Assembly (NCBI GenBank): GCA_017527155.1
Contig: JAFXQI010000029.1
Coordinates: forward strand, 1-63,714
From: Kiritimatiellia bacterium
GTDB taxonomy: Bacteria > Verrucomicrobiota > Kiritimatiellia > CAIQIC01 > Lenti-01
Direction of reading: 5' to 3'
DNA: 63,714 bases
A model generated the notes under the pieces. That model searched no databases and was not told the origin of the DNA. It saw only the letters and a list, made by a program, of their open reading frames with translations. Both the position numbers and the translations under genes were made by a program. How positions within the stretch are numbered: the first letter of the stretch is position 1; each line of letters opens with the position of its first letter. Below are positions 2,122 to 63,461 of this stretch, one piece after another.

Positions 2122-2170
2122 CGGCGGACTGAAGGAGGGTTCAGGATTGGCTGCAGCTTTCCAGACGGGT

Positions 2171-2242
2171 CCCTCCCGCAAGGTCGCGCGGAAGCGCGCC
2201 CCGGGAGGGGCGCCGGGGGGAGGGACGCGCTTCCGCGCGTCC
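2171..2242. repeat. Double-hairpin REP-like element, copy 1
   Basis: The left half, GGTCGCGCGGAAGCGCG, folds on itself, and so does the right half, GGACGCGCTTCCGCGCGTCC. The two halves are also near reverse complements. The flank CTTTCCAGACGGGTCCCTCC is shared in diverged form with the copies at 15.27 and 52.82 kb. Confidence 0.75.
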
Positions 2243-2309
2243 CTTGCGCGCACCCCCATGTCCTGAATACAGCCCCCATCGTTCCAACCCCATCGTCGCG
2301 ATCCACTAA

Positions 2310-2696: not shown

Positions 2697-4508
2697 ATGA
2701 ACACCTCCCCCACTACCGCAATCAAGGCCTTCGCCTTCGCCTTGGCCATCCTGCTGGCCCCGGCAATGGTGCTTGGCGATGGCTTCCTCAACGTGGACCT
2801 CAACTATGACTTCGAATCAGGTTCGGAAACGGAGGTGTACGTGTGCGGCTGTTTCAACAAATCCGCAACCAACATCACGATTCCCGAGGTAGTCGTGTAT
2901 GAATATGTAGTGCTGGATGAAGATGGCCAAGGTATTGTCAAGCAGCGCACTTGTCGCGTGACGCGCATCGGGAGGAATGCGTTTTCCGATTGCAACGCCT
3001 TGACGAGCGTGACGATTTCCGCCAGCGTGACAAACATCGGGGAGTATGCGTTTTGCCGTTGCAACGGCCTGACGAACGTGGCGATTCCAGACAGCGTGAC
3101 GAGCATCGGGGAGCATGGGTTTTCCGATTGCAGCGGCCTGACGAGCATGGCGATTCCCGCCAGCGTGACAAACATCGGGGAGTATGCGTTTTGCCGTTGC
3201 AGCGGCCTGACGAACGCAACGATTGGCAACGGCGTGACGCGCATCGGGAGGGATGCGTTTTCCGGTTGCAGCGGCTTGACGAGCGTGACTATTGGCAACA
3301 ACGTGACGAGTATCGGGTACGAGGCGTTTTCCGGTTGCAGCAGCTTGACGAGTGTGACGATTCCCGACAGTGTGACGAGCATCTGGAACGCTGCGTTTAA
3401 AGGTTGCAGCGGCCTGACGAGCGTGACGATTCTGGGCAATGTCACGAATGATACTTCCCCATTCATCAACTGCACGAATCTCACGACACTCGTCTTAGGG
3501 GAGGAGATGACAAAAGTCGGAAACCGCATGTTTTATGCTTGCAGCGGTCTGATGAGCGTGACGATTCCCAACAACGTGACAAGCATCGGGAACTCAGCCT
3601 TCGAGAATTGCTCAAATCTTACGAGCATGGCCATTGGCAACGGCGTGACAAACATCGGGACACACGTGTTTTCCGGGTGCAACTCACTGGAATCCTTTTC
3701 GGTGGCAAGCGACAACCCGGCCTTCAAGTCGGTTGATGGGCTTCTCCTGACGAAAGATGGGAAAACATTGTTGTACGGCGTAAACGGTGATGTCGTAATC
3801 CCTGATGGAGTCACGGAATTGAGCACCTATGCCTTCAACAACTACGGCGAACTGACGAGTATCGTCATCCCCAACAGCGTGATTCGTTTCCCAACGGAGG
3901 CTTTCGATGGTTGCGACAAGCTCTGGATATCCTGGTACCGCACCTTGGCCAACCTCGCGGCGGGTAGCGGGGCATCCGGCGGCTTGCCAGGCGACGCCGG
4001 CAAAACCGTGTCGTTCACCGTCACGAACGTCATCGTCCACTACGTGACGCAGAGCCTCCCGGGCGACGCGGTGACGCCGTCCACGAACTCGACGGGCATC
4101 GTGAACATCGTGGCCGAAGTGACGGCCGGCAAGGCGATTGCCATATCGGAGGACTGGGCGAAGCAGTATCCGGGCTTCGCGGAACAATACGGCGCCGACT
4201 TCTCCGCCGCGCTGACGATGGAGAACGGCAAGCGCGACGGCACCGGCGCCCCGATGTACGTCTGGCAGGATTACGTGGCGGGGACGGACCCGACGGATCC
4301 GGCGTCGGTGTTCACCGCGTCGGTCACCTTCGACGCCGAAACCGGCGAACCCGTCATCAGCTGGTCCCCGGAACTCTCCCCGGAGGAAGCGGCCAAGCGG
4401 CTCTACACCGTCTCCGGCAAGGTCAAGATGACCGACCCCGACTGGCTCCCGCTCGACGGCAACGCCTCCGACTTCAACTTCTACCGCGTCACCGTCGAAA
4501 TGAAGTGA
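2697..4508 (+). CDS. Secreted BspA-type leucine-rich repeat protein
   Basis: This 603-residue protein begins with a signal peptide (AFAFALAILLAPAMVLG, cleavage near 28). From about residue 80 to 400 it carries BspA/LRR_5 repeats with the recurring phrases SVTIPDSVTSIG and AFSGCSGLT. A non-repeat C-terminal part of about 170 residues includes YVAGTDPTDPASVF, a motif often seen near the end of secreted PVC proteins. The repeats are nearly identical at DNA level, so copy number may vary between strains. AAAAGGAG lies 8 bases before the ATG. The family is exported and often surface exposed; the ligand is unknown. Confidence 0.88.
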   Translation: MNTSPTTAIKAFAFALAILLAPAMVLGDGFLNVDLNYDFESGSETEVYVCGCFNKSATNITIPEVVVYEYVVLDEDGQGIVKQRTCRVTRIGRNAFSDCNALTSVTISASVTNIGEYAFCRCNGLTNVAIPDSVTSIGEHGFSDCSGLTSMAIPASVTNIGEYAFCRCSGLTNATIGNGVTRIGRDAFSGCSGLTSVTIGNNVTSIGYEAFSGCSSLTSVTIPDSVTSIWNAAFKGCSGLTSVTILGNVTNDTSPFINCTNLTTLVLGEEMTKVGNRMFYACSGLMSVTIPNNVTSIGNSAFENCSNLTSMAIGNGVTNIGTHVFSGCNSLESFSVASDNPAFKSVDGLLLTKDGKTLLYGVNGDVVIPDGVTELSTYAFNNYGELTSIVIPNSVIRFPTEAFDGCDKLWISWYRTLANLAAGSGASGGLPGDAGKTVSFTVTNVIVHYVTQSLPGDAVTPSTNSTGIVNIVAEVTAGKAIAISEDWAKQYPGFAEQYGADFSAALTMENGKRDGTGAPMYVWQDYVAGTDPTDPASVFTASVTFDAETGEPVISWSPELSPEEAAKRLYTVSGKVKMTDPDWLPLDGNASDFNFYRVTVEMK

Positions 4509-5325: not shown

Positions 5326-5399
5326 GGGCATTTTCGCTTGGTTTCCGCGTTGGAGGGGCTGGTTTTTCTTTCGCTTTCCAGGCGCGGTCCCGGCCGCAT

Positions 5400-5463
5400 G
5401 GTCGCGCGGAAGCGCGACCCTCCCGGGGCGGTCTCCGGGGGGAGGGACGCGCTTCTGCGCGTC
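5400..5463. repeat. Double-hairpin REP-like element, copy 2
   Basis: GGTCGCGCGGAAGCGCGACC is followed by GGGAGGGACGCGCTTCTGCG. It is the same two-hairpin design as the copies at 2.2, 15.3 and 52.8 kb, with a T in place of C in the second loop. Confidence 0.75.
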
Positions 5464-5641
5464 CGCGGCGGGATTTTCCGCGCGGGGAAGATTCCCCCTT
5501 GCGGTGGCGTCGGGGGAATCGGTAGGATGCGGGGGTTATGGACTTGGATTGCCGGACAGTCGATTCTGCGGTTTGCCTTCCGCGCCCGAAGGGCGGGCGG
5601 GGGGCGGGCGCGGCGTGCCGCGGCGCGGGGGAGGGAGCGGA

Positions 5642-5698
5642 AATTTTTTTCCAATCATTGGAAAACCGGCGAAAATATTTTCCAATCGTTGGAAAACT
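5642..5698. repeat. Two 19-bp palindromes
   Basis: TTTTCCAATCATTGGAAAA and TTTTCCAATCGTTGGAAAA stand side by side with a GC-rich spacer. The centre base differs between units, but the arms are constant. Confidence 0.8.
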
Positions 5699-5920
5699 CG
5701 CCGCCCTCCTTCTCCGGCTGGCGGTGACGCCGGCGCGCGCGTGGGCCGGCAAAGGGATGCCCGGGCCCGACGAGGTGGTGATGCAGAGGCAGGGCCCCGT
5801 TTGGCCAATGTGGCGCGATGTGGAAAAGGGGAAGGGGGCGCCCCATGACCGCACTCCTACAGCTCTCCTTATTTCAACAGAAAAACTGACAATGTCTTCA
5901 GATTGTGCATCTAGAAAGCC

Positions 5921-6325
5921 ATGAAAACGAAATATATTATTGCTTTGCTTTCCGTGATCTTCCTGTGTTCATGCAGTAAGCAAGAAGTGAAATCATGCGG
6001 TTCTCTGGAGGGCGATTGGCTGCTGTCGGGGGAATCGGCCAACAACAGGCGAATTCGCTTGAGCGCGAATGGCAATGCGTATTTCATGAATGTTCAAGGC
6101 AATGATGTCGGGATTAAAAACCATAATCTGATTTCTCCAAATGGAAGATGGGCGTTGTCCCATAATGGGAAAGAGCTGGAAATGGAGTTTCATCTTGACG
6201 GGGCCCTCTATTCGCATTCCGGGGAAATCGCCCATGTGAAGGAAGGTTTTGAAATATGGTTTGGTGTAGGCGATCCGGATGCATATGTGTGGAGGAAATG
6301 GAAATATGTCCGGGAAGCAGAATAG
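5921..6325 (+). CDS. Small AT-richer lipoprotein, unknown function
   Basis: This 134-residue protein starts with a lipoprotein signal, IALLSVIFLCSC, where the last Cys (residue 18) would be lipidated. The rest is predicted beta-rich (LEGDWLLSGESANNRRIRLS) and resembles small lipocalin-like or META-like lipoproteins, but no family is certain. Its base composition is clearly more AT-rich than the neighbours, which suggests recent acquisition. There is no strong Shine-Dalgarno sequence; AGAAAG lies just before the ATG. Confidence 0.7.
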   Translation: MKTKYIIALLSVIFLCSCSKQEVKSCGSLEGDWLLSGESANNRRIRLSANGNAYFMNVQGNDVGIKNHNLISPNGRWALSHNGKELEMEFHLDGALYSHSGEIAHVKEGFEIWFGVGDPDAYVWRKWKYVREAE

Positions 6326-6326
6326 A

Positions 6327-6475
6327 ATTATGGGGATTATGGGGACAATGGGGATTATGGGGACAGACCCCAACTTTCCCAATCATTGGAAAAATTTTTT
6401 CCAATCATTGGAAAAATATGGAAAGTTTTTTCCAATCGTTGGAAAATCTGAGAAAAAAGGGGACAGACCCCGAAT
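6327..6475. repeat. Short tandem repeat, 19-bp palindromes and GGGGACAGACCCC motif
   Basis: The segment begins with a tandem GGGGATTATGGGGACAATGG text. It then holds three palindromes of the TTTTCCAATCATTGGAAAA type between two copies of GGGGACAGACCCC (near 6359 and 6459). That motif is itself palindromic and is a common dispersed repeat in several bacterial phyla, as far as I recall. All of it lies between the lipoprotein gene and the next membrane protein gene. Confidence 0.75.
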
Positions 6476-6529
6476 TTCATCCACGCGGCTGGAAGCCGCA
6501 TCCCCCAAGCTTGGAGACAGGAGGGCGGC

Positions 6530-7264
6530 ATGAAACGGTTTCTCAAGAAATTCGTGGAATCGTGGTGGCTGGCGCCGTTGTGTTTCGCGGTGGCGGCGGT
6601 AGTGCAGGTTCCGCTTTCTTCGTGGTGCTTCGACAGGGCTTGGGATGCGGCTTTGAAGGCCGGTGCGCCGTCGGAACGTTGGGCCGCCATCATGGGTGGG
6701 TTCTGCGTCGGGTTTGGCCTTCTCATGCTGGTTTTCAAGGTGCTGGCCGTCGTTGCGGTCGTATTGGCGGCGGTCAGGCGGAAGTGGGGGCGCGTTTTGG
6801 CGGGGGTGGGAGCTTGCGTGGCGGCCTTGGTGGTTGCGTTGGGAGCGGTGGTTGCGGGATTGACGTGGGGAGAGGTTCGGAAAATCGAGTGTGAGTACGG
6901 CGGCAGGGAACCTTCCTTCGAGGAAATCGAACAGGATTGGTGCCACATCTACTACGTCATCATCCCCCATTGGGTCAGCATCGACTGGCGGCGGCGGCTC
7001 CGCGCTTTACCCGACGGGAGTTTCCTCCTGGCCGTGGAGGGCGGAAGCACGGAAAGAATAGAGGCGGAATACCGCGAGTGGAAAGCCAAGGGAAGTCAGC
7101 CGGGGCCTTCTCTTCCCTACCTTCCCTACAATGAGGACTTGTGGACGGAATGGAACCCCTCGAAAGAGGCGGTCGCGGAGAGAATACGGACCGGACATTG
7201 GCCGGAGAAGATTTCAAGCGAGAGCCCCCTTCTTCCCCAAGAGGAGAATCCAGCAGAACCATGA
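6530..7264 (+). CDS. Membrane protein, unknown function
   Basis: This 244-residue protein has two or three transmembrane segments in the first 125 residues (LAPLCFAVAAVVQVPL, then GLLMLVFKVLAVVAVVLA and VAALVVALGAVVAGLTWG). A soluble C-terminal part follows with several Trp and acidic residues. No family is recognised. GGAGACAGGAGGG precedes the ATG. It resembles the next gene in design (N-terminal helices, outside domain with Trp), so the two may be distant relatives or act together; this is inference. Confidence 0.65.
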   Translation: MKRFLKKFVESWWLAPLCFAVAAVVQVPLSSWCFDRAWDAALKAGAPSERWAAIMGGFCVGFGLLMLVFKVLAVVAVVLAAVRRKWGRVLAGVGACVAALVVALGAVVAGLTWGEVRKIECEYGGREPSFEEIEQDWCHIYYVIIPHWVSIDWRRRLRALPDGSFLLAVEGGSTERIEAEYREWKAKGSQPGPSLPYLPYNEDLWTEWNPSKEAVAERIRTGHWPEKISSESPLLPQEENPAEP

Positions 7265-7306
7265 GCGCTCTCCTCCAGCAATCCTTGCTTATCCCTTGCG
7301 CGAAGG

Positions 7307-7394
7307 CGCGGCAGGATGCCGCACCTCCGGAAGTGAGGCAGCACCTTTTGCACAAGCGGTGCCTGGCTTCCGGAGGTGCGGCTTCCAGCCGCGC
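7307..7394. repeat. Perfect-core inverted repeat before a start codon
   Basis: GCCGCACCTCCGGAAG in the left arm (about 7318) is matched by CTTCCGGAGGTGCGGC in the right arm (about 7367), and the similarity extends to about 42 bases each side. It ends only 16 bases before the next ATG. A half copy of the arm, GCGGCTGGAAGCCGC, lies before the previous gene at about 6485. It may be a small foldback element or an RNA hairpin in the leader. Confidence 0.7.
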
Positions 7395-7409
7395 CAGAGA
7401 GGGCGTGCA

Positions 7410-8093
7410 ATGAAAGCGGGAGGGAAGAGGCTTTTGCGATGGCTGCTGATTCTCTGCGGGGTGGCGGTCTTGGGCCCCCTTGCCCATTTTTGTTGGTGTT
7501 CCACGCTGGGAAGCGTGGCCTTGCTTTGCGCCGTGCCCTCCGCGCTGGCGGGACTCCTGCTCTGGCTGGGGAAGCGGTTGCTGGGCCGTGGTCGGCGCTG
7601 GGGAATGGCCCTCGTGACAATTGCCGTGGCCGTGTTCGTCGCCGTGCTGGCTTTGCTGGCGAATGTTGCTTGGCAGGCCGGTCCGTGGCACGACGGAATC
7701 GTCACGCACCGCACGGCGCCGGACGGACGCGAATACGTCCTTTCCCAGGCGTGGTCCGACTGGTACGGCGGCTATGACACCCGCCTTTTCGTCCGGGAAG
7801 CGGACGGAGAGTGGCAGTCATGCTGGAGGGTGCGCACCTGGAAGCCGATGTTCGGGAGTGGCTGTGAAATCCGGTTGCCCGAGCCGGACGAGGGGAAACC
7901 CGACGTCCGCTTGGCAAACGGAACGGACTGGTGGTTCTCTCCCGTTGCCCCGACCGTCCACCCGGCGGAGACGACGCCCGAAGAGCTCCATGCCTTCCAT
8001 CGGCAGGGAATGGCCAATCTCCGCGCCGGGAAACCGTACTGCGGGGGCGAGTGGAAGACTTCCCCGGAAGCGACGCAAGGGGGAGCACCGTGA
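7410..8093 (+). CDS. Membrane protein, unknown function
   Basis: This 227-residue protein has three hydrophobic segments near the N-terminus (WLLILCGVAVLGPLAHFC, ALLCAVPSALAGLLLWL and LVTIAVAVFVAVLALLAN). A soluble domain follows with WSDWYGGYDTRLFV and SCWRVRTWKP. No family is recognised. The ATG follows the large hairpin closely, and the Shine-Dalgarno is weak (AGAGAGGG). It lies just before the mre operon but is separated from it by six palindromes, so co-transcription is uncertain. Confidence 0.65.
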   Translation: MKAGGKRLLRWLLILCGVAVLGPLAHFCWCSTLGSVALLCAVPSALAGLLLWLGKRLLGRGRRWGMALVTIAVAVFVAVLALLANVAWQAGPWHDGIVTHRTAPDGREYVLSQAWSDWYGGYDTRLFVREADGEWQSCWRVRTWKPMFGSGCEIRLPEPDEGKPDVRLANGTDWWFSPVAPTVHPAETTPEELHAFHRQGMANLRAGKPYCGGEWKTSPEATQGGAP

Positions 8094-8132
8094 CGGCGCG
8101 GCTCCAGCGGCCCGCCCGCGGGCGGCGGGAAG

Positions 8133-8286
8133 TTTTCCAACCATTGGAAAAAAAGTTTCCAATCATTGGAAAATTTGGGCTGTTTTTTCCAACCATTGGA
8201 AAAATTTTTTCCAATCATTGGAAAAATCCGGAAAATTTTTTCCAATCGTTGGAAAACCGGCGAAAAATTTTTCCAATCGTTGGAAA
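8133..8286. repeat. Array of six 19-bp palindromes
   Basis: Six units of TTTTCCAAY(C/R)TTGGAAAA type stand in tandem with short, irregular, mostly A/T or GGCG spacers. Four centres are CAT-type and the last two CGT-type. The array occupies almost the whole spacer before mreC and ends 21 bases before its GTG. Spacers are far too short and irregular for CRISPR. Confidence 0.85.
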
Positions 8287-8307
8287 CTTCTTGCAGGAGG
8301 GTGTGCG

Positions 8308-15223: not shown

Positions 15224-15270
15224 CGCGGCTTGCGTTTTCCTGCCGCTTCCCGGACGTTTCCCTCCCACAA

Positions 15271-15334
15271 GGTCGCGCAGAAGCGCGACCCTCCCGTTGC
15301 CCTCTCCCCGGGGAGGGACGCGCTTCCGCGCGTC
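15271..15334. repeat. Double-hairpin REP-like element, copy 3
   Basis: GGTCGCGCAGAAGCGCGACC and GGGACGCGCTTCCGCGCGTC form two hairpins. The preceding CCTGCCGCTTCCCGGACG is shared with copies 1 and 6. Confidence 0.8.
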
Positions 15335-15340
15335 CGCAAA

Positions 15341-15404
15341 GGTCGCGCGGAAGCGCGACCCTCCCGTTGCGCTCTCCCCGGGGAGGGACGCGCTTCCGCG
15401 CGTC
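15341..15404. repeat. Double-hairpin REP-like element, copy 4
   Basis: This is a near-identical tandem repeat of copy 3, starting 70 bases after it. The first unit has GCAGAAGC and this one GCGGAAGC. Confidence 0.8.
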
Positions 15405-15452
15405 CTCACCGCTCTCCACGCCCCCTGCCTCGCCCTCGCCGGCGAGATCTGA

Positions 15453-22176: not shown

Positions 22177-22231
22177 AGATTACGGAAAAAGCTTGACCTC
22201 CCACCTCCCATCCCCCATCCTCTCCCCCATG
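22177..22231 (+). promoter_or_regulatory. Dispersed leader element, tag B, in front of family protein 1
   Basis: AGATTACGGAAAAA (tag B) begins the element, a C/A/T-rich stretch follows, and it ends in CATCCTCTCCCCCATGAAA, which includes the gene start. No Shine-Dalgarno sequence lies before that ATG; the CCTC run resembles the anti-SD instead. The tag recurs in inverted form inside the gene at 22984-22998. Confidence 0.65.
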
Positions 22232-23152
22232 AAAAAGCACCTCCTCAACGTCCTCGACAACACCGGCAAGGTCTTCCACGGCCTCCGCGGCATGAACCGC
22301 AATCTCGTCGGCCCCGGCGCCGACCGCTTCCTCCCCATCCTGCTCGCGCTGACGCCGGCGATCTTCGCCGCCTTTGCGGTCACCGAGGCCGGGGCCGCCT
22401 TCTTCGGCGAACTCGCCCGCCGCCGGCGCCTCCGCGAAAAGCTCCCGGATTCCCCGTCCTTGCGCGGCGCCCCGACCCCGGCCGAACTGGAAGACGACTG
22501 GATGGCCGACCCGCGGACCCTCACCACGCGCCTGCGCCTGGGTTCGCGCCTGGCGGACCTCGATCCGACCATCGACCACACGGTCGTGCGCAAGAAAAAC
22601 CGCCACGGCAAACTCGTCATCCGCTCCCGCAAGGGCGGCCTGAAGGGATGGCTTTCCGACCGCCGGGTCCGCATCCCCTACTCCACCGCCATGCGCTACA
22701 AGAAGCTCGCGCAACGATTGCGCGCCGTGCTGGAGCTGGATGACCGCCTCCCGCTGGAATGGGTCCTGTCCGGCGTGCCGGCGGACCGACCGCTTCCCGC
22801 CGAGCTGGATGGCCCCTGCGCGGCGGCGACTCGGCGGCTGGCGAAGATCCTGCGGGAGAACCGGTCGCTGGCGGGGCTGGCGCGGTACGTGGAAGCGAAG
22901 CTGGGGATCGTGCGGGTCCTGGCGGTGCGGAAGGCGCAGGTGCGGCGGCGGGCGGGGGGAGCGAAATCGCGGAAAAGAGGCGGTTTTTCCGTAATCTCAT
23001 GTGGACGGTCGGTCTCGCTGGCACCGGAACGGGTGGAGGGGACGAAGGCGGCGCTGGCGGAGCTGCTGGCGGAGGAAAACCTGTCGGGGAGGGCATTGGA
23101 ATTGCAATCGAAGGCGAAACGCTGGCTGGAGTCGGTGGCGGACGGGGCTTGA
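22229..23152 (+). CDS. Family protein 1 with leader tag: membrane-anchored, DNA-binding-like
   Basis: This 307-residue protein has a hydrophobic segment at about 34-58. The conserved core at 84-181 contains RLRLGSRLADLDP and the helix pair GLKGWL...YSTAMRYKKLAQRLR, which looks like a DUF3102-type DNA-binding helical unit. A variable C-terminal part follows. Family protein 2 at 47.27 kb shares the core at roughly half identity, including DPRTL, GSRLADL, GLKGW, YSTAM.YKKLA and PLEW. Codons for FSVIS (253-257) are an inverted copy of the tag in its own leader. Function is unknown; a role tied to the dispersed tags is inference. Confidence 0.75.
   Translation: MKKHLLNVLDNTGKVFHGLRGMNRNLVGPGADRFLPILLALTPAIFAAFAVTEAGAAFFGELARRRRLREKLPDSPSLRGAPTPAELEDDWMADPRTLTTRLRLGSRLADLDPTIDHTVVRKKNRHGKLVIRSRKGGLKGWLSDRRVRIPYSTAMRYKKLAQRLRAVLELDDRLPLEWVLSGVPADRPLPAELDGPCAAATRRLAKILRENRSLAGLARYVEAKLGIVRVLAVRKAQVRRRAGGAKSRKRGGFSVISCGRSVSLAPERVEGTKAALAELLAEENLSGRALELQSKAKRWLESVADGA
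22984..22998 (-). repeat. Inverted copy of tag B inside family gene 1
   Basis: TTTTTCCGTAATCTC is the exact reverse complement of GAGATTACGGAAAAA; 14 bases match the leader tag at 22177-22190 perfectly. It encodes FSVIS in frame, about 50 codons before the stop. Confidence 0.8.
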
Positions 23153-27644: not shown

Positions 27645-27704
27645 TTCATGGGGCGGAGGACGACGGAAACAAACGGAAAACGTCCATGTTTTCCGTAATC
27701 TCGC
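27645..27704 (-). promoter_or_regulatory. Dispersed leader element, tag B, in front of ybeY
   Basis: On the minus strand it reads GAGATTACGGAAAACATGG, then a TTTTCC hairpin, then CGTCCTCCGCCCCATGAAA. The ATG at 27650 opens a 12-codon frame that ends 33 bases before the ybeY start. Tag and ATG end match the other copies. Confidence 0.65.
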
Positions 27705-32338: not shown

Positions 32339-32426
32339 CGTGAATCTCCTTCTGCCCTCGACTCTACCCGCCTCCCCCTCCTTTGGCAACCCCGAAGCCC
32401 GCCCCCCGGACGCCCCGCGCCCGCAT

Positions 32427-32489
32427 TCGCGATATCAAGGAAAACACGCGGATTTCCAAGCGTTTTGCCCATATCCTCCCACCATGGAA
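32427..32489 (+). promoter_or_regulatory. Dispersed leader element, tag C
   Basis: TTCGCGATATCAAGG (tag C), then AAAACACGCGG...CGTTTT, then ATATCCTCCCACCATGGAAA. The ATG at 32484 opens a 12-codon frame ending at 32522, inside the 3' end of the convergent permease gene. No gene follows on the same strand, so this copy is unlikely to drive anything. Confidence 0.6.
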
Positions 32490-34656: not shown

Positions 34657-34679
34657 GCCGCCCTCCTTCCGCCGTCGAA

Positions 34680-34742
34680 GTTTTCCAACCATTGGAAAAA
34701 AAGTTTCCAACCATTGGAAAAAATTTTTCCAATCATTGGAAA
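34680..34742. repeat. Array of three 19-bp palindromes before tadA
   Basis: The units are TTTTCCAACCATTGGAAAA, TTTCCAACCATTGGAAAA and TTTTCCAATCATTGGAAAA. They stand in the spacer between the tadA start and the 3' end of the next gene. An AT-rich stretch with ATCGAA/TTCGAT words lies beside them (34757-34800). Confidence 0.85.
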
Positions 34743-34911
34743 ACTTTTCCGCCGCCCGTCCCACTCGATTCCATCGAAAGAATCGATTTTTTCGAAACAA
34801 TCGAAATTCATCCTTGTCCCCCTTTGTCCTGTTTGTCTTCCAAAAAATCGTTTCCTTCAAAAGTTGTGCCGAGTTGTTTTTCCAAGTTGTCAAAATTGTC
34901 GTTCTGGATTT

Positions 34912-37560: not shown

Positions 37561-37610
37561 CTCCGCCCCGTCTGCGAGCGCGTTGGCCGGAACGGTTGAA
37601 GAAACAGGGC

Positions 37611-37748
37611 GCTCTCCACGGGGAGGGACGCGCTTCTGCGCGTCCGCGAAAGAAAAACCGGCGCCCCAACGGAGTTGTCAGGCGAAGGACGTGTGTCTCC
37701 CTTCGTGCAAAGCGGGCAGGACGCCGAGTGCCCTCTCCCACCGGCGGC
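37611..37748. repeat. Half REP element and left half of a GTCAGGCGAAG element
   Basis: GGGAGGGACGCGCTTCTGCG (37621) is the right half of the double-hairpin element. CCAACGGAGTTGTCAGGCGA (about 37668) is the left end of the miniature inverted-repeat family, matched to about 37735 (CGTGCAAAGCGGGCAGGACG) and then broken off at the grpE stop. The right half is absent. Confidence 0.65.
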
Positions 37749-43367: not shown

Positions 43368-43429
43368 CTTTTGGCAACAGGAAAATCCCCTTGTTTTCAC
43401 CGTTTTCCACCCCTTTTCCCTCCCATGGA
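43368..43429 (+). promoter_or_regulatory. Dispersed leader element, tag A, in front of truB
   Basis: CGCTTTTGGCAACAGG (tag A), then AAAATCCCCTTG, GTTTTCCACC, and TTTTCCCTCCCATGGAC. The ATG at 43425 is in frame with truB and could add 23 residues to it; the truB-like part starts at 43494. Confidence 0.6.
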
Positions 43430-47207: not shown

Positions 47208-47268
47208 CTCGCGATATCAAGGAAAATTCTTGCCATTCCCCCAATTTTCATCCATCATCCCCCCCATG
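47208..47268 (+). promoter_or_regulatory. Dispersed leader element, tag C, in front of family protein 2
   Basis: CTCGCGATATCAAGG (tag C), then AAAATTCTTGCCATTCCCC, AATTTTCATCC, and ATCATCCCCCCCATGAAC with the gene start at 47266. No Shine-Dalgarno is present. An exact inverted copy of the 15-base tag lies inside the gene at 48059-48073. Confidence 0.7.
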
Positions 47269-48249
47269 AACAAATCTCCCATCTTCCCTCGCGGCTATCT
47301 CAAGGCATTGGCCAACGACTGTTTCGGCCCCCATCCCGGCCCCGTCTGCGGAGGGTCTTACGCCACCCTGGCGGAGGCCTGCTTCGGACTCGCCCTCTTC
47401 GGCGGGAGCCTTGCCGCCCATCTCCTCTGGTACGGCGGCAAAACCCTCCTCTCCCGGATTCTCCGCCACGTCTCGCCGCCCGAGCCGCTTCCACCGGCCG
47501 CCCCCCAGGCCCCCGTCTCCCTCCGCGGCGTCCCGGCGCCAGAAGACATCGAAGACGTCTGGGACCTGGACCCGCGCACCCTCTGCGGTCGCCTCCGCAT
47601 CGGCTCGCGCCTGGCCGACCTGGAGCCGACGCTGGACTCGCGTTTCGTCTTCAAGAAGGCCCGAAACGGCTCCCGCCGCATCGTCGCCCGGCAACCCGGC
47701 CTCAAGGGATGGATGAAGGAACACGTCCCCTCCGTCAAATACTCCACCGCCATGCACTACAAGAAACTGGCCACGCGCCTCCGCCAGCTCGTCGGCCTCG
47801 ATCCACGCATCCCGTTGGAGTGGCTCCTCCCCGACAACGAAGAGTCCCTGTCCGCCCTCGCTCCCGCCGACCGCCGGGGGGCCGCCGCCGCCCGGAGCAA
47901 GCTATCCCGCCTGCTCGCCGAGGCCCCCCGGTACACCCATCTCGTGCGGGCGGTCGAATCCAAGCTCGGCATCATGCGGATGGTAACGATCCGTCGCATC
48001 CAGCCGCTCAGGCCCGGTCGCGGAAAGCGCCGGAAGGCGGTGGATTCCGCGAAGAATCCCTTGATATCGCGAGCATCCCGTTCCGGCTTCGCTGCGACAA
48101 CGGACGAGATGCGGACGAAGGCCTTCTGGGATGCCGTCCGGAAGATACTGGGCGAGCGGAATCCCGACCGGGAAACCCGGCAACTGCAATCCGACATCCG
48201 CGCGTGGCTGAACGCGCCCTTGCAGGCCCGTCAGAACCGGCGGCGGTAG
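47266..48249 (+). CDS. Family protein 2 with leader tag
   Basis: This 327-residue protein has a hydrophobic segment at about 36-56 (EACFGLALFGGSLAAHLLWY). The conserved core at 91-188 contains DPRTLCGRLRIGSRLADLEP, then GLKGWMKEHVPSVKYSTAMH and YKKLATRLRQLVGLDPRIPL. The C-terminal part is unlike protein 1 in most places, but both end in a helix with LQS..R.WL. Residues 264-270 (NPLISRA) are encoded by the inverted tag C. Its function is unknown; the helix pair in the core suggests nucleic-acid binding. Confidence 0.75.
   Translation: MNKSPIFPRGYLKALANDCFGPHPGPVCGGSYATLAEACFGLALFGGSLAAHLLWYGGKTLLSRILRHVSPPEPLPPAAPQAPVSLRGVPAPEDIEDVWDLDPRTLCGRLRIGSRLADLEPTLDSRFVFKKARNGSRRIVARQPGLKGWMKEHVPSVKYSTAMHYKKLATRLRQLVGLDPRIPLEWLLPDNEESLSALAPADRRGAAAARSKLSRLLAEAPRYTHLVRAVESKLGIMRMVTIRRIQPLRPGRGKRRKAVDSAKNPLISRASRSGFAATTDEMRTKAFWDAVRKILGERNPDRETRQLQSDIRAWLNAPLQARQNRRR
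48059..48073 (-). repeat. Inverted copy of tag C inside family gene 2
   Basis: CCTTGATATCGCGAG is the perfect reverse complement of the leader tag CTCGCGATATCAAGG at 47208-47222. The adjacent ATTCTT is also shared. Confidence 0.85.
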
Positions 48250-52774: not shown

Positions 52775-52950
52775 GGAGCGGTTTGGGTTTTTCCGCAGCT
52801 TTCCGGAAGTTTCTCAACCACCAGGTCGCACGGAAGCGCGACCCTCCCGTTGCGCGCTCCAGAGGGAGGGACGCGCTTCTGCGCGTCCGCGGTGGAAATG
52901 CCTGGCGGGACGGTGGATCGAGGCCACGCTGTTTCTCAAACCGATCCGGG
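52775..52950. repeat. REP-like element (copy 6) inside a diverged miniature element
   Basis: GGTCGCACGGAAGCGCGACC and GGGACGCGCTTCTGCGCG (52823-52888) form the two hairpins. The outer parts, GGAGCGGTTTGGG on the left and CTGTTTCTCAAACCGAT on the right, resemble the ends of the 2.3-kb element, strongly diverged. Confidence 0.6.
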
Positions 52951-56680: not shown

Positions 56681-56742
56681 CTTTTGGAAACAGGAAAAAT
56701 CCTGATATTCCACGCGTTTTCCGTCATCCTTCCCTCCATGAA
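56681..56742 (+). promoter_or_regulatory. Dispersed leader element, tag A, upstream of a small secreted protein
   Basis: CTTTTGGAAACAGG (tag A), AAAAATCCTGATATTCC, CGTTTTCC, then TCATCCTTCCCTCCATGAAC. The ATG at 56738 opens a 28-codon frame that stops at 56824, before the gene at 56890. Confidence 0.65.
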
Positions 56743-60404: not shown

Positions 60405-60467
60405 TTTTCATGGGGGGCAGGATGGGGGAAAACAGGGAAAAATGTCCGTGTTTTCCGTAATCTCAAG
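60405..60467 (-). promoter_or_regulatory. Dispersed leader element, tag B
   Basis: On the minus strand: GAGATTACGGAAAACACGG (tag B), ATTTTTCCCTG, TTTTCCCCC, ATCCTGCCCCCCATGAAA. The ATG at 60411 opens a 30-codon frame without recognisable features. The next gene on this strand is tRNA-Leu. Confidence 0.65.
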
Positions 60468-63386: not shown

Positions 63387-63441
63387 GGGATGGAGAAAGG
63401 GTGGAAAACAGCGAAAAACCGACATGTTTCCCGTAATCTCA
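63382..63441 (-). promoter_or_regulatory. Dispersed leader element, tag B, in front of the sensor kinase
   Basis: On the minus strand: GAGATTACGGGAAACATG (tag B), TCGGTTTTTCGCTG, TTTTCCACCC, TTTCTCCATCCCATGAAC. It points to the kinase gene 83 bases downstream. Confidence 0.65.
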
Positions 63442-63461
63442 AATGACAGGCGCGATGACGG

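Follow-up and report, generated by a model that had tools for sequence, protein, structure and literature searches.

A family of putative DNA-binding proteins in a rumen Kiritimatiellia genus, paired clade by clade with short dispersed DNA tags

The window analysed here, a stretch of 63,714 nucleotides, holds two paralogous genes, each with a short tag in its leader and a second, inverted copy inside the open reading frame (Table 1). The two copies of tag C bracket most of the ORF of P0001, the clade C paralogue; the 66-bp leader element has the same layout as gene-less (orphan) elements dispersed elsewhere, and the internal copy encodes part of NPLISR, in the linker of the protein. The preliminary description of this DNA had reported both this pair, which we confirm as a perfect 15-base match, and scattered tag copies without the gene, which are indeed present and more numerous than the genes. 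In the 3.2-Mb genome tag C has 65 exact and 34 one-mismatch copies, compared with 0 for a reversed control pattern, and a chance origin is excluded genome-wide. Tags B and C, described as unrelated, are not wholly so: they have a common frame (tag, GGAAAA, -35 box) and a common A/T-phased 3′ architecture.

Table 1 Positions of genes, tags and promoter-like motifs in the window
Feature	Position	Strand	Remarks
Leader tag B AGATTACGGAAAA	22177-22189	+	Leader of gene 1
Gene 1, clade B paralogue	22229-23152	+	307 aa
Internal tag B GAGATTACGGAAAA	22985-22998	-	Inside gene 1; encodes FSVIS
Orphan tag B	27689-27702	-	Full architecture
Orphan tag C TTCGCGATATCAAGG	32426-32440	+	Full 66-bp architecture; intergenic
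Orphan tag F TTTGGAAACAGGAAA	38706-38720	-	Full architecture
Orphan F-like tag TTTTGGCAACAGG	43369-43381	+	Full architecture
Leader element, CCA-tag-AAAA...ATGAA	47205-47270	+	66 bp; PWM score 59.7; reversed window 0 matches
Leader tag C CTCGCGATATCAAGG	47208-47222	+	Directly 5′ of promoter of P0001
-35-like hexamer TTGCCA	47230-47235	+	7 bp past tag C; read from sequence
-10-like hexamer CATCAT	47253-47258	+	7 nt 5′ of ATG; 17-bp spacer from TTGCCA
P0001, clade C paralogue	47266-48249	+	ATG ORF; 327 aa
Internal tag C	48059-48073	-	Inside P0001; perfect 15-base reverse complement of leader tag
Orphan tag F	56683-56699	+	Full architecture
Orphan tag B	60451-60464	-	Full architecture
Orphan B-like tag TTTGAGATTACGG	63431-63443	-	PWM score 50

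Read from its letters, the arrangement of TTGCCA, CATCAT and ATG in the P0001 leader looks like a sigma-70-like promoter of a leaderless mRNA, and its spacing recurs in paralogue leaders. A TTG lies about 35–39 bp 5′ of the ATG in 70 of 71 readable paralogues (38 of them at 36), the ORF starts with ATGAA in 69 of 71, and the leader tag is found immediately 5′ of the -35-like TTG. Such a fixed position beside the gene's own putative promoter is what would be expected of an autoregulator.

Each gene had been said to carry its own tag twice; this holds for clades B and C only, and the other clades have no internal copy. The internal tag lies 168–195 nt 5′ of the stop codon in nearly all B and C members. 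Within the clade C internal tag, the Leu and Ile codons are TTG and ATA in 100% of members and the Ser and Arg codons are TCG and CGA in 91–95%, whereas the commonest codon at a conserved residue of this clade accounts on average for a fraction of 0.72; with codons frozen to this degree, the internal tag is under selection as DNA. The internal tag is also the better conserved copy and fits the orphan consensus better than the leader tag, which drifts. All 28 internal copies lack both TTG and CATGRA, and they retain the A/T steps at +12–14 and +22–24 despite coding, which suggests that the site reaches beyond the tag. A second inverted tag copy occurs only inside B and C genes or past two of the four E genes. 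In the latter (L064 and L065; G000:C93 and C29) an inverted E tag lies 250–255 bp 3′ of the stop, and the stretch between stop and tag is not homologous between the two genes.

Pattern searches and fetched stretches, from which all family and tag counts derive, gave 79 matches to the protein family in the host genome (3.2 Mb, 114 contigs), 45 in a rumen sister species (G001; MAG RUG11196) and 9 weaker ones in one further genus of the same family as the host. The related genus G003 has 9 relatives of shorter length, several of them hydrophobic at the N-terminus, in which we saw no leader matching the tag-leader design, and distant relatives occur in a goat-rumen Kiritimatiellae MAG. One clade E paralogue with its tag (L258) is on a contig filed under another phylum (JAEEIJ010000041.1, titled Bacteroidales bacterium), which is probably misbinned. 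Searches of Pfam, NCBIfam and PHROGs with P0001 and gene 1 returned no match at E ≤ 1, PADLOC and PDB sequences gave no match to the family, and a literature search found it nowhere described. Viral contigs and plasmids contained no relatives, and a phage or plasmid origin was rejected for this reason; viral contigs yielded two 18-mer matches.

P0001 comprises a hydrophobic helix (residues ~33–55), a conserved core (~84–240) around the family motif GLKGW...YSTAMxYKKLAxRLR, a basic linker (LRPGRGKRRK) and C-terminal helices. A hydrophobic N-terminal 19-mer (hydropathy ≥1.6) is present in 58 of 64 proteins. An Arg-rich stretch follows the hydrophobic helix and precedes the predicted DNA-binding domain, which by the positive-inside rule suggests that this domain is cytoplasmic. 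The core was modelled with a pLDDT of 89. Foldseek found nothing for this model at E ≤ 0.001 among PDB and viral models and the VIA-align rows were weak, and no known fold was assigned on these grounds. The top two VIA-align rows were DnaA domain IV, a DNA-binding domain, with weak Z scores of 4.3 (71 residues) and 3.8 (72 residues) at ~3 Å; this resemblance of a predicted structure counts as a lead at most.

In a maximum-likelihood tree of 64 proteins, tag classes C (23 proteins), B (6), E (4), G (3) and H (3) each form one branch, and classes D and F, which have a common TTTGnnAACAGGAAAA-like consensus, are intermixed. Leader-tag labels change 12 times on this tree compared with a mean of 37.6 when shuffled (0 of 200 shuffles as low), so that leader tags follow protein clades, as the preliminary description supposed. 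In clades B and C, leader and internal tags of the same gene agree at 328 of 364 positions, a level reached by 0 of 2,000 full shuffles; shuffles within clades reached it in 163 of 2,000, and there is thus no significant covariation inside a clade. The sequences of subclade L027/L029, in which both tags moved from ACGG to CCAG, offer one hint of joint change. The claim that tag and gene evolve together is therefore borne out between clades and not by leader–internal covariation within them. The description had itself named paralogues with non-matching tags as evidence against it, and clades D–H, without an internal tag, supply this in part: the co-varying protein/tag pair holds at the level of clades and fails as a two-tag design common to all of them.

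A profile of the sequence 3′ of the tag, with training restricted to DNA from outside the window, detected 2 gene leaders and 7 orphans within it, 9 elements in all, and 0 in the reversed sequence. Tags B, C and F are followed by one architecture, with A/T at positions 0–3, 12–14, 22–24 and 31–32 and CCATGAA ~43–48 past the tag. The orphan element measures ~66 bp and its A/T steps are phased at 10–11 bp (phasing of 0.37, compared with a maximum of 0.036 for shifted controls). Among 124 orphan copies read, 87 have CATG(A/G)A at about +43 and no TTG, 12 have TTG and 25 have neither; of 27 gene leaders, 26 have both motifs. None of 113 orphans scored by a simple gene finder fell inside a gene. 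Neighbouring genes are co-oriented with the orphan upstream in 68 of 105 cases and downstream in 67 of 101, and where a co-oriented upstream gene is present the orphan tag often begins 38–58 bp past its stop. Tags of clades E and G have few extra copies, which argues that a regulon is not general.

Other roles for the orphans were tried and rejected. The orphan ATGAA probably does not act as a start codon in general, since the ORF downstream is often only 7–80 codons long and tandem copies at G000:C60 do not stay in frame; speaking against a general coding role of ATGAA are also the orthologues L237 and L114, which differ by one base just past ATGA. An RNA element was dismissed as Rfam gave no match across the tags in the window.

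Further repeats accompany these elements or lie near them. At G000:C60:15794-16655 (L248), an orphan tag B element and a hairpin repeat form four tandem copies at ~280 bp spacing. Hairpin-like repeats (GGGAGGGACGCGCTTCCGCGCGTCC) occupy window positions 2168-2252, 5386-5474, 15257-15415, 37609-37655 and 52852-52898, and elsewhere some orphan elements (L035, L116, L117 and L126) have been copied along with such hairpins. Intergenic clusters of the TTTTCCAAYSATTGGAAAA palindrome, at 5652-8287 and 34677-34743, represent a second dispersed repeat family. A large ORF, possibly encoding a leucine-rich-repeat surface protein, contains 69-bp tandem coding repeats at 2887-3681.

The preliminary description proposed a specificity system and offered three forms of it. 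An addiction-type module finds no backing: there is no partner gene, homology between paralogues spans one gene only, and PADLOC, Pfam and NCBIfam gave no match to a defence or toxin family. Transposase and ends has indirect evidence in the sharp boundary at the tag, with no match to a known transposase family. Regulator and operator fits best. In this reading a family of DNA-binding proteins, membrane-anchored and sequence-specific, would have expanded in the genus, each clade recognizing its own tag core of ~13–15 bp together with 3′ A/T-rich minor-groove steps one helical turn apart. The leader tag, just 5′ of the protein's own -35 box, would act as an operator for autoregulation; the second, stronger and inverse copy that clades B and C have near the 3′ end of the ORF would serve as an internal operator, perhaps to loop the DNA across the gene, and orphan elements would be further intergenic targets of the same proteins.

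We give an even chance to the reading of the family as DNA-binding proteins that are sequence-specific, regulate their own genes through the leader site and have dispersed targets; tag binding, membrane location and regulatory direction are what we infer within it. Speaking for it are the TTG (70/71), the ATGAA start (69/71), clade-specific leader tags, frozen internal codons and phasing. Against it stand a DNA-binding domain with no family, fold or solved-structure match as proof, the orphans, which do not clearly serve the next gene as promoter elements (the downstream neighbour is opposite in 34 of 101 scored), and the lack of an internal site in most clades. Autoregulated bacterial regulators of the gal and lac type have upstream and internal operators. 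The tag genes may be analogous in having an operator-like site beside the -35 box and a second inside the gene, in an inverse orientation compatible with looping; they differ in their many dispersed phased sites, predicted membrane helix and expansion in one genus, and no known regulator domain was detected.

The main rival is tag-led transposition, in which tag-to-stop units (~1.04 kb) and 66-bp tag-to-ATGAA mini-elements would be copied to new intergenic sites through action on the tag by the proteins or by a host enzyme, in analogy to RAYT transposases and REPINs; on balance we consider it unlikely, though a serious contender. Its case rests on where homology ends. In paralogue pairs of >80% DNA identity, homology typically extends from the tag (-55 to -62 from ATG) to near the stop and no further, and flank similarity is absent even at 94–96% identity (L008 and L009, for example, are 95% identical over 1,030 bp). 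Homology of clade F copies ends before the stop, so that stop codons are borrowed from the flank, and some orphans are up to 95% identical across 66 bp with nothing outside, as are L060 and L138 at 95%. These sequence boundaries suggest copying of tag-led units, as does a tag consensus stronger than is usual for regulator sites (65 perfect versus 34 one-mismatch copies). However, there are no terminal inverted repeats and no constant right end, transposase families in Pfam, NCBIfam and PHROG gave no match, and in the sister species several orphans are conserved in position. Flank searches against the sister genome, limited by its broken synteny, revealed neither a target-site duplication nor a clean, collinear empty site. 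Gene order across window positions 10001-49999 is broken every 2–3 kb relative to G001, with blocks mostly 90–98% identical, and order breaks coincide with most of the window's intergenic regions, whether or not these carry a tag; misassembly of one MAG is a possible source. Because most gene boundaries in the 40 kb compared are sites of broken order, sharp edges may be a general feature of the genus. Both flanks could be mapped for 12 orphans, and in 11 of these the left and right flanks are on different sister-species contigs; most untagged block gaps are likewise split, and we therefore claim no tag-specific effect on rearrangement breakpoints. Like RAYTs and REPINs, the protein classes are paired and co-evolve with their own short dispersed extragenic repeat, of which many copies are gene-less. 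In contrast to RAYTs, which occur as one copy per class (PMC3116915), there are ~79 paralogues here; profile searches with P0001 and gene 1 detected no RAYT/Y1 (HUH) transposase domain, and the tags are non-palindromic single units rather than inverted pairs flanking a gene.

Chromosome anchoring, in which membrane-bound proteins would hold dispersed intergenic sites in a Noc-like manner, is consistent with the predicted membrane helix and the dispersed sites, and has a precedent: Noc is described as binding scattered sites and bringing DNA to the membrane (PMC4331003). Diverged DNA specificity among paralogues is likewise reported for ParB and Noc (PMC7383237). Nevertheless, anchoring does not account for the ~79 paralogues, for the tag's place in the leader, for the internal site or for the shortage of further sites in clades E and G; copy number and leader position differ from ParB/Noc, profile searches found no match to that family, structure comparison was not decisive on a ParB-type fold, and we regard this explanation as improbable. 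Less probable still, to the point of being remote, is that the tags label DNA as self for its import or exchange and have spread by biased uptake. Pasteurellacean uptake signal sequences (USS) also comprise a core followed 3′ by helically spaced A/T-rich segments, with perfect copies in excess of near-perfect ones (PMC1626085), and neighbours are reshuffled between the sister species although most blocks are 90–98% identical. However, USS are frequent within coding DNA (PMC1626085), whereas orphans are intergenic and the coding copies are the conserved internal B and C sites; several tag types coexist in one genome, usually end in CCATGAA and occur in gene leaders beside the -35 box, a position that uptake does not explain, and the predicted DNA-binding domain is suggested to be cytoplasmic. 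The resemblances to REPIN/RAYT, USS and Noc concern how the system might work, by analogy; the defining features of the first two fail.

Returning to DNA-binding regulators, a wider version, a new type of genome-wide system in rumen Kiritimatiellae in which dozens of membrane-anchored paralogues, with a phased intergenic site class for each main clade, are self-copying tag-led units that join in the extreme reshuffling of gene order between the sister species, seems to us doubtful, somewhat more so than transposition. As a rough extrapolation from the 7 orphans in the 64-kb window, sites would number a few hundred. If the clade tags are bound, a single genome would supply dozens of related DNA-binding proteins as a natural series whose diverged target sites can be read directly, each mapped by its own leader, and paired sequence data could then be used to test how DNA-binding specificity evolves. 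The family would also represent an undescribed expansion in an uncultured rumen lineage, in which orphan elements would explain part of the intergenic DNA.
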